Below are positions 1-60,696 of a DNA stretch of 64,000 nucleotides, one piece after another. Source of the DNA: Entoloma clypeatum (taxonomy: Eukaryota; Basidiomycota; Agaricomycetes; Agaricales; Entolomataceae); NCBI GenBank assembly GCA_963565915.1, contig OY751488.1, positions 2,418,001-2,482,000 of the forward strand. The letters are read 5' to 3'. A program made the position numbers and the translations under genes. The notes below the pieces were generated by a model. The model made no database searches. It had not been told where the DNA came from and was given only the letters and a program-made list of their open reading frames with translations. Position 1 is the stretch's first letter. Each line of letters begins with the position of its first letter.

Positions 1-1735
1 TTATAATGGCGGACAGGATGACCGCAACGTCTGAGCAGATTGTGAGATAGGGATGCGCCGCGATCAGGGATCTTCATACTGTTCACTGCATCGCCAAAGA
101 GGTGGATCAAGACGCCGAGGAGGTTCAAATTGTGTTGAGGGGCAGCAGCGGCTTGGTTGACTGTATGATGGTGGAGGGCGTGCTGACAATGACTATCAAG
201 TGTCGTCGGTTCTAGTTCGTATGATTATACTCACGACCCTATCCCGAAGCTCAGCTGTTTCGAGTTTTCCCTGGTGAATCAACTCCATCGTATCGGTGCT
301 ATGCCCATGCTCAACAGGTCCATGTTCTATGGGATGTGCAAATCGATTGCGTGCAATCAACAAAAAAACACTCACCGTGCTCCATCAAGTGGGTGCCATG
401 TCCATGTCCATGTTCACCATGTGAATGTCCACCATGTCTAGGCCCGCTGTGTTCTATAGGATGCGTAAATCGATTGCGTGCAATCAACAAAAAGAACACT
501 CACCGTGCTCCAACGCGTCGATGCCATGTTCATGTTCACCATGTTCACCATGTGAATGTCCACCGTGTTCTATAGGATGCGCGAATCAATCACATGCAAT
601 CAACAAAAAGTTCGAACACTCACCGTGCTCCAACGCGTTGGGGCCATGTCCATGTCCACCACGTTCTATAGGATGCCAAGTCGGTTGTGTGCAATCAACG
701 AAAAGAAGGACACTCACCACGCTCCATCGCGTCGGTGCCATGTCCATGTTCACCGTGCGAATGCCCACCAAGTTCTATAAGATGCCGAATCGATTGCGTG
801 CAACCAACGAAAGAAGAATACTCACCGTGCTCCATCGCGTCGGTGCCATATCCACGTTCGCCATGTTCACCATGCGAATGTCCACCGTGTTCTATAGCGT
901 GCGCGATTCGATTGCATGCAATCAACAAAAAGAAGAACACTCACCGTGGACGGCAAGGATACTTACGATATTGAGGCATAGGCCGATGCTGCCGATGATG
1001 AGCACCTGAATGGGAGCCTTTATCTCCTCGAGGTTGATAAATCTTTCGATGGATTGTAGGAAAATGGACAGCGCCAGTGCAAGCAAGAAAACACCATTGA
1101 AAAATGCACCTGGAGAAATCCAACCTGATGCAGATGCTTAATTAATGGATAAACGCACCAACAAATTCTGCTCGAAGGAAAGCGAATGTAAATTTGGCAT
1201 TCTAACCCCGACATTTTCGTCAACAGACTGTTTGTAGCGATGCATCGAATGTGCTCACAGGCTTCCCTTTCTCATGGAGCTAAGAGAACATTGTAAGTCC
1301 CGTTGCAAGACATCAGGCGATTAAGACTAAACACAAACATGGGCTGCCACGAAGGCTATTGCGCTGTTCAGACAAGAACTTAGACTTTGAGGAAAGCTTT
1401 ATGAACAGGGCTTGCTTACTACGCCACGATATCCTGAATGACGGATTGTGTTAAAACACGACCAATGACTCAAAATCCTAATCCCCGAGACTCACATTAA
1501 GGTAATGGAACTATGTGGCGCAAGGCTCAGTGGCGTAAGTGGAACGTCCATGGGAAGAGGACACAAACAGCATCTGCAATGAGGGCCAAACTCTTGGTCC
1601 GGAATCCAGCTGTAATGCACGAATTCGAGCTAACAATTGGGTCATAGGAAGGAGAGGAGACGCACTAGTGATTTCGGCAAGAAAGAACGCTAAGCTGATA
1701 CACAGGACAATCCCGATGCGAGTTGTATTCTTCAT
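1..1735 (-). CDS. ZRC1: CDF-family zinc/cadmium transporter, left duplicate (3' end cut by window edge)
   Basis: This is a cation diffusion facilitator of the fungal vacuolar Zrc1/Cot1 type, a Zn2+/H+ antiporter by family knowledge. The start ATG at 1,735 opens a first transmembrane helix (RIGIVLCISLAFFLAEI). Spliced translation then gives the TM2 metal motif HxxxD (FHYLND), the TM3-4 block (GAFFNGVFLLALALSIFLQS) and, after a long His-rich cytosolic loop, the TM5 motif HxxxD (HLFGD, about 100-150). All inferred splice sites keep GT/AG and phase, as in the right copy (5,469-7,299), so this copy looks functional as far as it is visible. Several exons are tiny (15, 11, 25 and 21 nt). The His-rich loop is greatly enlarged by the mini-exon array at 235-945. 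EMC5 lies directly upstream on the same strand. The C-terminus is outside the window, so intactness there is unknown. Confidence 0.88.
235..945 (-). repeat. tandem array of symmetric His-rich mini-exons with their introns
   Basis: Read on the minus strand, this stretch holds the end of the TM4 exon (to 945) followed by exons at 826-891 (66 nt), 718-774 (57), 624-665 (42), 504-569 (66), 376-453 (78) and 235-326. The first five are multiples of 3, and all join in phase 1. They are separated by near-repeated introns of 49-54 nt, each starting GTGAGT and mostly ending CTATAG or CCATAG. Each exon encodes a short unit rich in His, Gly and Glu (HGGHSHGEHGHG-like) ending EHG. The right-hand transporter copy has a single such exon in the same place. 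The repeat unit is therefore exon plus intron, about 95-125 bp, duplicated without breaking frame. Confidence 0.85.
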
Positions 1736-2577: not shown

Positions 2578-3780
2578 GATGGTTGCAAGCTGGTTGGGGG
2601 CGTTTCGGAGATGCACGTGGTAGTTGGTACCAGTGAAGCTCGTGAAGGCCAGTGTCACTCATGCAGCTACGCCGAAAACTCTGAACTCTGCGCTGGCGAT
2701 TCAAATATTCATGCACATGACATGGCTCGTCGAACTCGACCAAAGTATTTCCATCTTACGATTTCCATATGTACAGTATAAGCATTTTTAGGAACGTATT
2801 CAACATCAGCGTGTCCAGCGCGATGTCACCACATATCAGAGCACCTACGTATCATTCGCCAAGTCAGTCCACTCATGACCCCAAGTTCTCAAGGACCCCG
2901 TCTCCAACCCAGACTTACACCCTGCGATTTGGTGTGTGTGTGAATAAAGGCTCATGATGCTTCCACGATCGTGATGAAACATGCCGAGTCGGAGTAAACC
3001 GATTCAAGAAGACAATCGCGTCCCTTGAATCCTTCATCGAGGGGAAGTCCCCGATACGACATTCATCAATACATGGAGCAAGTTCCGAGCAGCCCAATCC
3101 CGTAACGAAGAACAACTGAGGGACGCCTATTCAAGCGCTGTTGTAATTCACAGAACGAGTTCATTGTTTTCTCGGATACCCTGGGTCCTTGGTTTTTTGC
3201 TACCGGCTTGGAGGGCCTCTCCACCTTTTTTTCCTTCGTGGTCACTCTAGGGACGGTGCAGGAAGAACCCGCCGCCACAAGTCTTCTGAACGTTGTACTT
3301 GTCCCTCTCGTTTGCCAGACTGCCTAGACGATCCGACACATTTGTCATCAAAGCCGATACGAACCCCGGGATTGAATGGCACCCATGAAGGCGCAAACCT
3401 GTTCAAAGGTGATGTATGGGATTCAGATGACGACTCGAGCTCGGGAACCGCGGACGCGGACAGCTGGGGCTTCGACGACGACGCATTACTGAGCCCGAGT
3501 TTGAGCCTGAGACGGCACCCGAACCCACGGAAGCCACTTCTCATCCAAGTCCGGAAGAGCTGGCCTCTTCACCGGAATTGGTCAACGGTGAGGAGAAACC
3601 GGATCCCTCTGAAGCATGGGGCTGGAATGACGGGGACAGTGAGGAGCCGACGGAGGAGACCGCCTGGGATGACCCGTGGGCGGACGAGTCAACGAACATC
3701 GACTCTACGCCGGAGACAGAACCACGTCCTCCTCCGGCTCCCTCGTTACCCTCCGCTCCTGCGCCAAAGGCGACAACGCG

Positions 3781-4676
3781 ACTCGAGAAAGCTGCTAATA
3801 AAGGGATGAAACATATGAATGGGACCTCAATTGGGACCCCTTCTCCTCACCACCCCTTCCACCCGTCACCGCCTTGTTCGCCTGCGCCTGCACCTCTCCA
3901 CTCCGTGCCATCGGACCCAGAGCCGTCGCCGACAGTCGCGCGAACTATACCCAAGGAGTCATATGCCGTGTCTCTGCGTGCGAAGCAGATCATCTCTCTT
4001 GTTGAAGATGTCCTGAAGGAGGGAACAGAGTTTACACGGTCTCGACTATTTTCGCGCGGACCGTCTTCTTTGGCGTTACCGGGAACCACCATCCTATCAA
4101 CCGCTCCTTCAGTTCTTGACCTCCATCGGGCTTTGTACCCAATGAAGTTTGCCGAGAAGGTGCCCCGACCGAGCGGTGGCATGCGTCTTTCCAATGATTG
4201 CTTGTATTTGGGCGGACAAATTGAACAGATCAAGCAGGGCCTGTCCGGAGACGTCGGTGCGGTGGTGGAAGAGCGCCTCGAGGAGTGTGCGCATCGTTTC
4301 AAGGTGTTGAGCGAGAGTTGGTATCATAATGTTATTGTGAGTGAGAGTTGGTTTTTTTTCTTCTCCGGTGGAAAAATATTTGGTGGCTTATTTGACGTTT
4401 TCTCGTATATAATTTTCTAGCGTGACGAGCAAGAGGCTATAAACAGGATAATCTGCACAGGGGCTCAGGGACTTATGTACACGGGGGATCAGGACCGGTA
4501 TGACGAATGTGAGGCGGCCGTTATGCGAGCTCTTCAAGAGGTCAGAGGGTTTTCTCGTGATGTAAAAGTTCGTATCGCCCCCTGAATTACGAGAAAGAGC
4601 GTTTGTAACAAATTTTTCCTGATTACTACTAGGGTATTTTGACGAAGAGCAGGTACTACACAGCCATAGGCAAAGT
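3781..4676 (+). repeat. 896-bp tract apparently identical to 9,965-10,860
   Basis: Within otherwise diverged duplicates this block aligns at a constant offset of 6,184 bp, with no substitution that I could find by eye, across exon and two introns. The right boundary is sharp: after the shared AGGCAAAGT the two copies read differently. On the left, similarity declines more gradually (a few substitutions in 3,541-3,780). Confidence 0.8.
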
Positions 4677-5468: not shown

Positions 5469-7299
5469 CTAAACAGAAGCCCCATTCTTTCTTTTCGAAA
5501 TGCTAGTGACAGCACACCCGAAGTGATCCTGGGAGCCCGTACGGCCACAACCAGCAATGAGCTCCTCGGTGGAATGAGTATCATTCTGAGCATCTCTCTG
5601 AACTTCCGGCGAAATCGTCACATGGCCTATGCCATATGCCGCAAAGCAATGCTGCATATATTGTTCCGTCTTTTCCCATTCTTCCAGAGCCATGCCCTTT
5701 GGAACGCAGACATGGAGCGATGCCAAAATTATTCTGTTGGTGAAATATGGGTGGATTGTGCCAGAAAGCGCTCGAGGAAAACGCACGATTGGGAAAGATG
5801 CCACACATGCAGGTCATGCACCGAGAGGACGTTGGGAACCTATACTCGAGTCATTAACGCGGGATACTTCGAGGACGAGACAGATCCACTGACCGCCAGG
5901 AGGTCGTCTTTAATTTTTTCTAGGTCAAGGAATGAAGGGGTTGCTTCGAGAAGGATACGACCTGACTTCAAAGCTGTGGGGTGATCAATGATTAATGAAC
6001 GGCTATATGAGGAGAACTTACTCATTGGGACCGCACTCCCAAATATGATGAGACTGATAATAAGAGAAACGGCGGGGTCGGCATAAAACCTATGGGGTGA
6101 TTGCACCTTCCAAATTATAATGGCGGACAGGATGACCGCAACATCTGAGCAGATTGTGAGATAGGGATGCGCCGCGATCAGGGATCTTCATACTGTTCAC
6201 TGCATCGCCAAAGAGGTGGATCAAGACGCCGAGGAGGTTCAAATTGTGTTGAGGGGCAGCGGCAGGTGGATTGACTGTATGATGGTGGAGGGCGTGCTGA
6301 CGATGACTATCAAGTGTCGTCGGTTCTAGTTCGTATGATTATACTCACGACCCTATCCCGAAGCTGTTTTGTGTCAGGTTCTTCCTGAAGAACCAGTGCC
6401 ATAGTGTCACTGGCATGCCCATGTCCACCGTGTTCTGTAGAATGAGCGGATCAATTGCGTGCAATCAACAAACAAAAAAAAAACACCCACCGTGGACGAC
6501 GAGGGCGCTTACGATGTTGAGGCATAGGCCGATGCTGCCGATTATGAGCACTTGAATAGGAGACTTTATCTCCTCGAGGTTGATAAATCTTTCGATAGAT
6601 TGTAGGAAAATGGACAGCGCCAGTGCGAGCAGGAAAACACCATTGAAAAATGCGCCTGGAGAAATCCAACCTGATGCAGATGCTTGATTAATGGATAAAC
6701 GCACCAACAAGTTCTGCTCGAAGGAAAGCGAATGTGAATTTGACATTCTGACACCGACCTTTTCGTCAACAGACTATTCGTAGAGACACGCTGAACGTTC
6801 TTACATGCTTCCCTTTCTCGTGGAGCTAAGGTAACGCCGTACGGCCGTAAGTCCCGTTGCAAGCCATCAGGCGATTGAACCACAAACATGGGCTGCCACA
6901 AAGGCTATTGCGCTGTTCAGCCAAGAAGTTAGATTTTGTGGAAAGCTTCATCACGATGAACAGGGATTGCTCACTACGCCACGATATCCTGAATGACAGG
7001 TTGTGACACGTCGCAGTGCGCTCGATGATCGACGACTCAAAATTGAGACTCACATTAAGGTAATGGAACTATGTGGCGCAAGAGTCAGTGGCGCAAGTTG
7101 AACGTACATGAGAAGAGCGACACGAACGGCATCCGCGATGAGGGCCAAGCTCTTGGTCCGGAATCCAGCTGGAATGCATGAAATTCAATTGAGCTTAGAA
7201 TGGGGACATAGGAAGGAGAAGAGACGCACTGGTGATTTCAGCGAGAAAGAACGCTACGCTAATGCACAGGACAATCCCGATGCGAGTCGTGTTCTTCAT
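5469..7299 (-). CDS. ZRC1: CDF-family zinc/cadmium transporter, right duplicate
   Basis: This is the complete gene of the Zrc1/Cot1 type. The start ATG is at 7,299 and the stop at 5,469-5,471. In order the spliced product shows TM1, GFRTKSLALIADA, the TM2 zinc motif FHYLND, TM3-4, a short His-rich loop (one EHGGHGH exon, then HALHHH), the TM5 motif HLFGD, TM6 (FYADPAVSLIISLIIF), KSGRILLEATP, and the cytosolic ferredoxin-like domain (VHDLHVWHLSQ, SLHVCVPKGMALEEWEK, GIGHVTISPEV). The gene is cut by at least a dozen introns of about 50-70 nt. Exons 3-6 are only 15, 11, 25 and 21 nt, and the first two together spell FHYLN-DIVA. Expected role: sequestering cytosolic Zn into the vacuole. Compared with the left copy, the His loop is minimal. 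Confidence 0.9.
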
Positions 7300-8054: not shown

Positions 8055-11000
8055 ATGGCTTTTCCAATACCTTCCCATCTGCCGCGAAAGTCAGCCGTGC
8101 AGGATGTCTCTACCCAAATTCTCTCCAAAATCGATGCAGTTACGCCGAAAACAATGAACTCTGCTCTGGCGACGTCATGGCTCGTCGAACTCGACCACGC
8201 CATACAGGCGACCAAAGTATTTCCATCTTTCATGACTTTTAGAATGTACAACATGAGCATTTATAGGAACGTATTCACGAGCGTGTCCAGCGCGATCTCA
8301 CTACATTCGAGCGCCAGCTATCATCCGCCAAGTCGCTCCAGACACGTCTCGTTACACTCACGACTCAAGTCGAAGTCCTCAAGGACTCTGTCTCCAATCC
8401 AGATGTGAGAAACCGCACCTTGCGGGTGTGTCAATCCAGGCTCATAATGCTTCCAGACAGGGCTCATCCCGACGTTTGTAGAAAGTCTGACGAAACATGC
8501 CGAGTTGGAGCAAGAGGCTATGAATGCCAGTGTAGAATTGGACGCTCTATCTCGCTTGAACCGATTAAAGAAGACATTGGCGTCCCTTGAATCCTTCATC
8601 GAGGCAGGGAAACTCTCCGATGCAGTTGAGGTGTGTCGAGAATTGGATGGTCTACTCCAGGAAATGCCTGCCTATCTAAATGAGACCGACGTTGTCCGAG
8701 ACTTGAGGGTCAGTCTGGATACGTCAACATTATCACAGTCATGTTTACATGAAATTGCAGAGCAAGTTCCGAGCAGCCCAATCCCGTAACGAAGAACAAC
8801 TGAGCGACGCCTATTCAAGAGCTATTGTAATTGCACAAAACGAGTTCACTATCTTCCCATCGGTCCAAGGTATCGTGCAATGCGCTGCTGTGTCCGCCTT
8901 TTTAACGGGATGCCTCTAGTTCGACAGTCTGCAACAAACCTTGCTTTGCCATACATCCTATCATCACTTTCAGGAAACTTCTTGACAAATCATCTGACGA
9001 CTTTACGACGCGATCTCACAATTCACTTCATTGATCATCTTCTCAAACAGCCAAAATCTCTTTCAGTGTCCTCTACCGAGCACAAAATATCCCTATCTCC
9101 CGCCCTGCCCACTGACGAGGTTCTTGCTATCCGCTTAGAGAACCTCTCCGCTGTTTTCCACTTCATCTCCTCGCACTTCTTCCCCTCATTGCCACCCTCA
9201 GAGCGCAAAATCTTCCCTCTCTCGCTATGCAAGCCCACCACCACAAGCCTCCTGAACAATGTCCTCATCCCCTCTCTCCCGTCGTCGTTTGACAGACTGC
9301 CTGACTATTTGGAGCTGGCTCAGCAATGTGTCGCCTTTGAAGAGGAATACCTGGTTGGTATGTTCGGCAACGATCCAAACGACACACCTGTCAAAGCATG
9401 GGTCGAGGGGTTGAGCGGCCATTATGAGCGGCAGAGACGGCTCTTATTCCTTGAACATGCAAGAGACATCGTTGTCTCGCCAGACGGTCCCACCGACACA
9501 TTCTTCGTCGAAGTCGAGATCAACCTAGAAGTCGCATTGGTAGTTCCTGATGGCTTGAATGGTACGGGTGAAGACGCAAACTTGGTCAAAGATGATGTAT
9601 GGGATTTAGATGACGACCCGAGCTCGGAAACCGCGGACGCGGACAGCTGGGGCTTCGACGACGACGCAATACCTGAGCCCGAGTTTGAGCCTGAGACGGC
9701 ACCCGAACCCACGGAAGCCACTTCTCATCCAAGTCCGAAAGAGCTAGCCTCTTCACCGGAATTGGTCAACGGTGAGGAGGAACCGGATCCCTCCGAAGCA
9801 TGGGGCTGGAATGACGGGGACAGTGAGGAGCCGACGGAGGAGACCGCCTGGGATGACCCGTGGGCGGACGAGTCAACGAACATTGACTCTACGCCGGAGA
9901 CAGAACCGCGTCCTCCTCCGGCTGCCTCGTTACCCTCCGCTCCTGCGCCAAAGGCGGCAACCCGACTCGAGAAAGCTGCTAATAAAGGGATGAAACATAT
10001 GAATGGGACCTCAATTGGGACCCCTTCTCCTCACCACCCCTTCCACCCGTCACCGCCTTGTTCGCCTGCGCCTGCACCTCTCCACTCCGTGCCATCGGAC
10101 CCAGAGCCGTCGCCGACAGTCGCGCGAACTATACCCAAGGAGTCATATGCCGTGTCTCTGCGTGCGAAGCAGATCATCTCTCTTGTTGAAGATGTCCTGA
10201 AGGAGGGAACAGAGTTTACACGGTCTCGACTATTTTCGCGCGGACCGTCTTCTTTGGCGTTACCGGGAACCACCATCCTATCAACCGCTCCTTCAGTTCT
10301 TGACCTCCATCGGGCTTTGTACCCAATGAAGTTTGCCGAGAAGGTGCCCCGACCGAGCGGTGGCATGCGTCTTTCCAATGATTGCTTGTATTTGGGCGGA
10401 CAAATTGAACAGATCAAGCAGGGCCTGTCCGGAGACGTCGGTGCGGTGGTGGAAGAGCGCCTCGAGGAGTGTGCGCATCGTTTCAAGGTGTTGAGCGAGA
10501 GTTGGTATCATAATGTTATTGTGAGTGAGAGTTGGTTTTTTTTCTTCTCCGGTGGAAAAATATTTGGTGGCTTATTTGACGTTTTCTCGTATATAATTTT
10601 CTAGCGTGACGAGCAAGAGGCTATAAACAGGATAATCTGCACAGGGGCTCAGGGACTTATGTACACGGGGGATCAGGACCGGTATGACGAATGTGAGGCG
10701 GCCGTTATGCGAGCTCTTCAAGAGGTCAGAGGGTTTTCTCGTGATGTAAAAGTTCGTATCGCCCCCTGAATTACGAGAAAGAGCGTTTGTAACAAATTTT
10801 TCCTGATTACTACTAGGGTATTTTGACGAAGAGCAGGTACTACACAGCCATAGGCAAAGTGGCGAACGCTGCCTTAGCCAGAGTGTTGCTCGATGTATTG
10901 GCCTTACCTGATATCCCTGAAGTGGAATCACATCGCCTGAGCGAGCTTTGCCGCATTTTGCATGCTGTAGAGGGACTTTTCGTTGAGGATCCTGCCGAGG

Positions 11001-39574: not shown

Positions 39575-40700
39575 TGCACCTAAGGGTGCCCCAACGACCG
39601 CCCCTGTGCCCAACGACCACCCCTCACACCCAAGAGCTGCCCCTCCGTGCCCAATGGTCGTCCTGTGTGCCCAACGGCCCCCCCCGTGCCCAACGACTGT
39701 CCCTCGCACCCAAGAGCTCCTATCCGTCCCCAACGGCTGCCCCTGTCCCCAACAACCGCCCTGCATGCCCAACGACTGCCCCTCCGTGCCCAATGACTGC
39801 CTCTGTGCCCAACAACCACCCCTCACACCCAAGAGCCGCCCATCTGTGCCCAATGGCCATCCCGTGTGCCCAACGACTGCCTCCATGCCCAACAACACCC
39901 CTCACACCCAAGAGCTGCCCCTCCTTGTCCAACGGCCGTCCCGTGTGCCCAACAACCGCCTCCGTGCCCAATGACCACCCCTCGCACCCAAGAGCTGCCC
40001 CTCCGTGCCCAACGGCTGTCCTGTGTGCCCAACAACTGCCCCTCGCACCCAAGAGCTCCTTTCCATCCCCAATGGCTGCCCCTGTGCCCAACGACCACCC
40101 CTCGCACCCAAGAGCTGGCCCTCCTTGTCCAACAGCCATCCTGTGTGCCCAACGACCGCCTCCATGCCCGGTGACCACCCCTCACACCCAAGAGCTCCTC
40201 TCTGTGCCCAATGGCTGCCCCCGTGCCCAACGACTGCCCTCCATGCCCAATGACCACCCCCGTGTCTAACAACTGCCCCTCCATGCCCAACAGCTGCCCC
40301 CGTGCCCAACGACTATCCCTCTTACCCAAGAGCTGACCCTCCGTGCCCAAAGGCCATCCCGTGTGCCCAACAACTGCCCCCATGCCCAACGACCATCCCT
40401 CACACCCAAGAGCTCCTATCCATCCCCAACGGCTGCCCCCGTCCAGAATGACTGCCTGCATGCCTGACGACCGCCCCTCCGTGCCCAACGGCCGTCCCGT
40501 GTGCCCAACGACCGCCCCCGTGCCCCAACAACTGCCCCTTGCACCCAAGAGCTGCCCTCCATGCCCAACGGCCGTCCTGTGTGTCCAACGACTGCCCCCG
40601 TGCCCAACAACTGCCCCTTGCACCCGAGCATGCCCAGCCGCCGTCTCCTGCACCAACGGCCGTCTCGTGTGCCCAACGATGACACGAGAATGGTGGGAGG
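39575..40700. repeat. CCCAACGACCGCCCC minisatellite with higher-order period
   Basis: Tandem units of about 17-20 bp (GTGCCCAACGACCGCCCCTC variants) run for about 1.1 kb. A longer unit ending in CACACCCAAGAGCT recurs roughly every 60-130 bp. Open frames exist in several frames on both strands, with no protein-like composition. Fragments in opposite orientation (GTTGGGCATGAG) occur at 41,390-41,570. Confidence 0.85.
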
Positions 40701-51865: not shown

Positions 51866-52298
51866 TGTAAGGGCGACCTTACGATCCAAGACTCAAACTC
51901 AGATACTTGCAAGGGAGATCCGAAGTTTAGATTGAGCAGTCTGATAAGTAATACAACACACACCTTGCAAGGGAGATCCAAAGAGAAAGTTCTAAGGATT
52001 CCCCTGCAAGCTAGCGAGATAAATAGTAAAATGAGATATGAAATAAGAGATAAAACGAGACGCATGAATGATGAGCAATGATTGGGAGTAGCGATGAAGG
52101 ATGAATGGAAACAAGATGAATGATAGTACCTGCGATCCGACGTGCGGAGTAGCGGATGGGGGCGGAGTCGTCAGATGCGGAGAGGCGGATAAGATGTCGG
52201 AGACAGCGGATACGATCGGAGGACGTCGGAGATGGTGGAATAGAAAGGAAAGGAAGAAAGGAAAGGAAAAGTAAAAAGTGAAAGTGGTTGCCCTTACA
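51866..52298 (-). repeat. element C1 5' LTR
   Basis: A 433-bp TGTAAGGG...CCCTTACA. It matches the two C2 LTRs with scattered substitutions. Its outer end joins the gag sequence of B2 at GCCACCTC, implying that C1 inserted into B2. Confidence 0.88.
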
Positions 52299-54598: not shown

Positions 54599-55031
54599 TG
54601 TAAGGGCGACCTTACGATCCAAGACTCAAACTCAGATACTTGCAAGGGAGATCCGAAGATTAGATTGAGCAGTCTGATAAGTAATACAACACACACCTTG
54701 CAAGGGAGATCCGAAGAGAAAGTTCTAAGGATTCCCCTGCAAGCTAGCGAGATAAATAGTAAAATGAGATATGAAATAAAAGATAAAACGAGACATAGGA
54801 ATGATGAGTAATGGTCGGGAGTAGGGATGGGGGATGAATGGAAACGAGATGAATGATAGTACCTGCGATCCGACGTGCGGAGTAGTGGATGGGGGCGGAG
54901 TCGTCGGATGCGGAGAGGCGGATAAGATGTCGGAGACAGCGGATACGATCGGAGGACGTCAGAGATGGTGGAATAGAAAGGAAAGGAAGAAAGGAAAGGA
55001 AAAGTGAAAAGTGAAAGTGGTTGCCCTTACA
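54599..55031 (-). repeat. element C2 3' LTR
   Basis: TGTAAGGG...CCCTTACA bounded; same length as the 5' LTR. It contains two copies of TTGCAAGGGAGATCCGAAGA about 65 bp apart. Confidence 0.93.
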
Positions 55032-60263: not shown

Positions 60264-60696
60264 TGTAAGGGCGACCTTACGATCCAAGACTCAAACTCAG
60301 ATACTTGCAAGGGAGATCCGAAGATTAGATTGAGCAGTCTGATAAGTAATACAACACACACCTTGCAAGGGAGATCCGAAGAGAAAGTTCTAAGGATTCC
60401 CCTGCAAGCTAGCGAGATAAATAGTAAAATGAGATATGAAATAAAAGATAAAACGAGACATAGGAATGATGAGTAATGGTCGGGAGTAGGGATGGGGGAT
60501 GAATGGAAACGAGATGAATGATAGTACCTGCGATCCGACGTGCGGAGTAGTGGATGGGGGCGGAGTCGTCGGATGCGGAGAGGCGGATAAGATGTCGGAG
60601 ACAGCGGATACGATCGGAGGACGTCGGAGATGGTGGAATAGAAAGGAAAGGAAGAAAGGAAAGGAAAAGTGAAAAGTGAAAGTGGTTGCCCTTACA
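60264..60696 (-). repeat. element C2 5' LTR
   Basis: Matches 54,599-55,031 with one visible difference (GGACGTCGGAGA versus GGACGTCAGAGA). Flanked by CGTCC. Confidence 0.93.

Follow-up and report, generated by a model that had tools for sequence, protein, structure and literature searches.

The window analysed here, a 64,000-nt stretch of Entoloma clypeatum contig OY751488.1 (2418001-2482000), carries near its left end two copies of a predicted CDF zinc-transporter gene on the minus strand. The left copy starts with an ATG at 1735 and occupies 1..1735 of the window; its exon 16 spans base 1 and exons 17-19 lie outside, the end of the gene falling about 630 bases left of base 1 when traced with adjoining contig sequence. 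Its model comprises 19 predicted exons, is open to the stop and encodes 467 aa. The right copy (5469..7299, ATG at 7299) is predicted to have 14 exons and 367 aa, with its last exon lengthened to the stop, where the stop-to-stop frame ends at 5469. Among the 11 CDF matches listed for the genome, gene models were built for this pair; local alignment of the right protein to other CDF-match loci gave weak matches at two places.

The spliced left protein contains both Zrc1-type domains, Cation_efflux (Pfam, E 2.3e-35) and ZT_dimer (E 2.7e-11). Both copies retain the HxxxD zinc site, as HYLND in TM2 and HLFGD in TM5, and at the corresponding H and D columns HD is present in 99 of 122 aligned rows for TM2 and 121 of 122 for TM5. 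The best named relatives among the matches listed are mushroom CDF transporters from Hypsizygus marmoreus, Collybia nuda and Lyophyllum shimeji. The left gene is thus predicted to encode a Zrc1-type zinc transporter, with vacuolar zinc transport as its presumed role. The two proteins share 92% identity outside the TM4-TM5 loop, and their dN/dS of 0.195 overall (0.088 for TM1-4) indicates that the CDF gene is under purifying selection. A pseudogene was rejected, given this ratio and the fact that both copies are open to the stop.

The duplication extends partly into a plus-strand neighbour, whose copies at 3369-4676 and 9552-10860 are 98% identical over 1309 bases, although the stop-to-stop frame measures 329 aa on the left versus 604 aa on the right; neither stretch has a Pfam match at E 0.001. 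Similarity between the CDF copies ends at 1777 and 7338, about 40 bases before their ATG codons, and the two promoters therefore likely differ; that of the left copy contains a TATATATAG stretch. Further into the window, 39589-40678 is a complex tandem array, 1.1 kb long, whose units resemble CCCAACGACTGCCCC and whose periods include 20, 40, 80 and 139, and one short tandem-repeat pair occurs three times (52173-52284, 54907-55001 and 60572-60666), which suggests three copies of a longer duplicated element.

The feature that sets the left copy apart is a row of small predicted exons in the region encoding the loop. Predicted exon 8 (945..1109, minus strand), which encodes TM4, has CACG as its last 4 nt directly before the first array intron. 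It is followed on the same strand by predicted mini-exons 9 (826..891, 66 nt, EHGGHSHGEHGERGYGTDAMEH), 10 (718..774, 57 nt, ELGGHSHGEHGHGTDAMER), 11 (624..665, 42 nt, ERGGHGHGPNALEH), 12 (504..569, 66 nt, EHGGHSHGEHGEHEHGIDALEH) and 13 (376..453, 78 nt, EHSGPRHGGHSHGEHGHGHGTHLMEH), and then by exon 14, a 92-nt terminal loop exon (235..326) whose start resembles a mini-exon. A first-pass annotation of this DNA, made from the sequence alone, had proposed five phase 1-1 mini-exons of these lengths, all multiples of three, plus a terminal exon, and the gene model reproduces that proposal to the base (phase 1-1 in 5/5). Its placement of the array in the His loop of a CDF zinc transporter is likewise borne out by the domains, the HxxxD sites and the position of the loop. 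The same annotation had credited the right copy with a single mini-exon; there, exon 8 leads through one intron to an 86-nt terminal loop exon (6349..6434, minus strand) with nothing between, and internal mini-exons are absent.

Array introns 8-13 measure 53, 51, 52, 54, 50 and 49 nt, and all six start with GTGAGT and end with ATAG. The first-pass length range of 49-54 nt holds for them, whereas its description of them as near-identical does not, since pairwise identity is 77-94% (94% for the closest two). In length they fall within the 48-65 nt of the other 25 introns of the gene pair. Intron 9 (775..825, minus strand, 51 nt) is the sole array intron of the six without a YTRAY motif, which is also absent from 7 of those 25 others. 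Modulo 3, the exon lengths are 0,0,0,0,0 and the array intron lengths 2,0,1,0,2,1. Between 235 and 1109, GTRAGT occurs at the six array donors and once within exon 8; this consensus donor (GTAAGT at 966, minus strand) lies 22 nt before the predicted donor and might serve as an alternative 5' splice site that shifts the frame. A 194-codon open frame also runs antisense through the array on the plus strand (425-1009), probably as a by-product of composition.

Taken as intron plus exon, the units of 94-128 nt are 81-89% identical, so that adjacent exons and introns are homologous, in line with the first-pass proposal that the amplified segment is intron and exon together. The boundaries of the units offer a view of how they may have arisen. 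The five mini-exons end in GGAGCACG or, in one case, GGAGCGTG, ahead of GTGAGT: their final CACG equals the end of exon 8 and is preceded by ATGGAG in exons 9, 10 and 13 and by TTGGAG in exons 11 and 12, and ATGGAG matches the inside of terminal exon 14. One unit would therefore span from the last bases of exon 8 (CACG) through the intron to the inside of the next exon (ATGGAG), and joining two such units would create GGAGCACG|GTGAGT and thereby a donor ready for use, with an acceptor already lying upstream of it. The boundaries themselves are seen in the sequence; a tandem duplication from the CACG of exon 8 to the ATGGAG of the terminal exon, repeated, is what would yield the array. Each unit would bring along a donor and an acceptor with the intron between them, plus the start of an exon. 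Every copy would therefore add a new phase 1-1 exon of a length divisible by three and lengthen the protein by 14-26 residues, 3-9 of them His, with no new splice site required.

As to when this growth took place, ATGGAG is common to the units and the terminal exon of the left copy, while the right copy reads ATGGCA at that place, consistent with an array that grew in the left copy once the gene had been duplicated. Between the copies, introns 1-6 and 8 differ by 12-25% and intron 7 by 2%; the unit introns have diverged by 6-23%, so that the growth would be about as old as the gene duplication or a little younger, but not recent. An active minisatellite with homogenised units was rejected on the same figures, its units being 81-89% identical and its closest introns 94%. 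The suggestion in the first-pass annotation of a length-variable locus analogous to minisatellites is correspondingly weakened, since the divergence of the units is close to that of introns 1-6 and 8 when the two copies are compared (75-88% identical). A dispersed repeat or introner-like element was also rejected: a search of the 60-Mb genome (20 contigs), in which match counts are lower bounds, returned 2 matches, one being the array itself and the other part of the right copy.

A second process appears to have acted beside the array. From 251 to about -346 (negative positions lying left of the window), the left copy is near-identical to about 5768-6365 of the right copy, with runs of 63, 117, 155 and 212 identical bases. 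The dS between the copies is 0.047 for exons 15-18, compared with 0.31 for TM1-4 and 0.51 for the last exon; similarly, introns 14-18 are 96-100% identical and introns 1-6 75-88%. This segment is likely a gene conversion tract between the CDF copies. The upper limit of the tract falls within exon 14, adjoining the array, and the two versions of the terminal loop exon are 70% identical. Conversion would thus seem to have evened out the second half of the gene while neither copying the array across nor removing it.

Several comparisons bear on whether the array is more than a fortuitous pattern. Between exon 8 and exon 14, up to 6 in-frame introns can be chained, while 1000 dinucleotide shuffles gave longest chains of 0 (796 shuffles), 1 (203) or 2 (1); such shuffles destroy the repeat and so overstate the case, showing no more than a clear departure of the unit from random sequence. 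In a tandem-repeat control covering 193,900 bases (the window, adjoining sequence and 12 further stretches of the same genome), 23 rows with periods of 60-250 were recorded, overlapping ones included, and in-frame chains of at least 2 occurred only in the 3 rows of the array. Across the six donor hexamers and six ATAG ends, 10 alignment columns are invariant and the other 42 columns hold 22 changes, corresponding to a hypergeometric P of 0.0028 when columns are taken as independent. For the GT/AG bases alone (24 sites), the chance of staying unchanged at the intron rate is P 0.11. Joined together, the mini-exons contain 0 stops in the true frame and 1 and 8 in the other two; 20 random substitutions leave no stop with a chance of 0.46 in simulation, so the open frame says little, and we dropped this argument.

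These results can be set against the possibility that the units are a minisatellite within a single 618-nt intron, in which case exon 8 would be spliced directly to exon 14 and give a 364-aa protein with a loop of normal length. In its favour, that junction is in frame, and the units vary about equally at the three codon positions. However, an intron of this size would be nearly ten times as long as any other in the pair, GTGAGT and ATAG stand unaltered at all six introns, every mini-exon length is a multiple of three, and the units read as His blocks resembling the start of the loop in relatives. We regard the single-intron reading as highly improbable. The structural reading, with symmetric predicted mini-exons amplified in frame, is by comparison well supported but unproven.

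How far the residues of the mini-exons are maintained is a separate matter. We looked for an excess of change at third codon positions within them and found it absent, the three positions showing 25, 26 and 24 pairwise differences; pN/pS within the mini-exons is 0.56, and exon identity in the array (81-89%) is no higher than intron identity (77-94%). Given codon positions that vary about equally and exons no better conserved than introns, selection on residues is weak at most. The array thus keeps its frame and splice motifs while its residues drift, and the exon lengths in multiples of three could stem from slippage in CAT-GGN repeats and not from selection. Such figures favour a neutral course, whereby the mini-exons are spliced in and the longer loop has no particular effect, being tolerated on account of a flexible loop and of units that preserve the frame; a ZNT2 protein with its loop His replaced is described as still giving some zinc resistance (PMC6147782), which points the same way. 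Nevertheless, the frame and the donor and ATAG motifs have been kept despite 11-19% divergence between units, several columns (G, H and E) show no variation when the mini-exons are aligned, and conversion of the loop His of ZnT7 to Ser is reported to abolish transport (PMC10932157). On balance, we consider purely neutral growth unlikely.

In our view, the probable explanation is that the tandem array consists of a duplicated intron-plus-mini-exon unit, predicted to be spliced constitutively and in full into a metal-binding His loop about three times longer. Intron-by-intron splicing of all units, with full inclusion in the mRNA, would be the likely default: one-by-one removal is expected because the array introns are similar in length to others of the gene and their donor hexamers are identical. 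Skipping a single mini-exon would require the removal of a 148-177 nt intron, and skipping all five one of 618 nt, compared with 48-65 nt for the other introns of the pair.

The first-pass annotation had suggested a splice-tunable metal rheostat, in which metal-dependent skipping gives isoforms with different numbers of His blocks. Its range of up to seven blocks must be reduced to a maximum of six (five plus the terminal exon). Its statement that any skipping is safe for the frame was confirmed, as the full reading frame is kept in 32/32 subsets of the five mini-exons; the six identical donor hexamers could in principle compete, and junction analysis in Schizophyllum commune is reported to have identified 1,527 exon-skipping events in coding regions (PMC5034255), so fungi can skip exons. 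Against a rheostat yielding one to six blocks stand the long introns it would need, the uniform inclusion that identical strong donors predict, and the share of skipping among coding-region events by transcript assembly in the same species, given as 1% versus 43-44% for intron retention (PMC5034255). We therefore judge it very unlikely. A broader form, a genetic dial for zinc buffering in which recombination makes loop length differ among strains and splicing makes it differ among isoforms (one to six His blocks), with the frame never at risk, strikes us as quite doubtful. If splicing does vary at this locus, intron retention is likelier than exon skipping. Retention of intron 9 would keep the whole frame and add 17 aa, and retention of any of the five other array introns would truncate the protein.

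Full inclusion would give the left copy a predicted TM4-TM5 loop of 155 aa with 38 His, flanked by hydropathy peaks at residues 112-130 and 286-304, compared with 50 aa and 9 His in the right copy. A whole-protein search scored 7996 candidates and found 1745 relatives, of which 120 were listed and all aligned for loop length. Their loops measure 29-78 aa with at most 19 His (medians 53 aa and 10.5 His), and none of these 120 exceeds 78 aa; the compared relatives are predicted proteins, and mini-exons may be missed in other annotations. With residues 131-260 alone as query, 0 of 7993 candidates scored reached an E-value of 0.001 or better, low-complexity sequence being one that scores poorly. 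Zrc1-like fungal Zn-CDF proteins, such as the zinc/cadmium resistance protein of Hypsizygus marmoreus, nonetheless share Cation_efflux, ZT_dimer and HxxxD with the left protein; their His-rich TM4-TM5 loop begins at the same place (VHDHGGH / VHEHGGH), with 77% identity outside the loop. It is in loop size, at most 78 aa and 19 His among the 120 listed, that they differ from it.

A review of such transporters names His loops as a zinc buffer, selectivity filter, sensor or capture loop and describes them as binding zinc and tuning transport in ZnT7 and AtMTP1 (PMC10932157). Deletion of the first half of the AtMTP1 loop is reported there to raise activity, and in ZNT2 the replacement of four loop His is described as moderately decreasing zinc resistance, while deletion of a loop segment abolished it (PMC6147782). 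By analogy, an enlarged cytosolic TM4-TM5 loop would bind more zinc and could either buffer it or feed the transport site; judging from the AtMTP1 account, the larger loop may cost rate or slow zinc release (PMC10932157). AtMTP1 and human ZnT7 are also close in architecture, with long cytosolic TM4-TM5 loops given as having 25 and 21 His and zinc Kd values of 25 and 12 uM (PMC10932157). Their loops are long and His-rich like that of the left copy, but here the loop is encoded by an array of intron-separated predicted mini-exons.

Splice forms that differ in the His-rich region of a CDF protein are known from TgMTP1 of Thlaspi goesingense, a plant gene in which a single segment varies and which is not known to carry an exon array. 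Micro-exons are about 36 nt or less, and those of schistosomes are in-frame and smaller than the array exons described here. A micro-exon gene was rejected on size, the array exons being 42-78 nt. Schistosome micro-exon genes comprise runs of tiny exons whose proteins are reported from secretions (PMC10399815), whereas the left copy is predicted to encode a membrane transporter and its small exons are copies of one another. Similarly, SP7-like effectors of arbuscular mycorrhizal fungi are described as being built of 6-11 imperfect repeat units, a number that differs from one paralogue to another (PMC11333574), but they are secreted proteins unrelated to the transporter. A parallel in gene structure is that of Dscam-type tandem exon duplication arrays, which likewise place exon copies next to each other in a row (PMC1397879, PMC6071210). 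Those are described as being spliced in a mutually exclusive manner, while the exons of the left copy, with lengths in multiples of three, can all be included and would encode a low-complexity loop; with every subset in frame, the reading frame imposes no choice of one exon. A search of one literature library, judged by title and the start of the abstract, gave no fungal or zinc-transporter tandem exon array among the matches listed. The array is predicted to be a tandem exon duplication, and its occurrence in a metal-binding loop is the new part.

The metal-binding loops of these transporters vary widely in length, and the route by which they grow is hard to reconstruct. In the left copy, the likely growth steps can be read from the sequence, with each copy of the unit bringing its own splice motifs and remaining in frame. 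The right copy, which has no array, provides a natural control within the same species for how loop length affects the handling of zinc.
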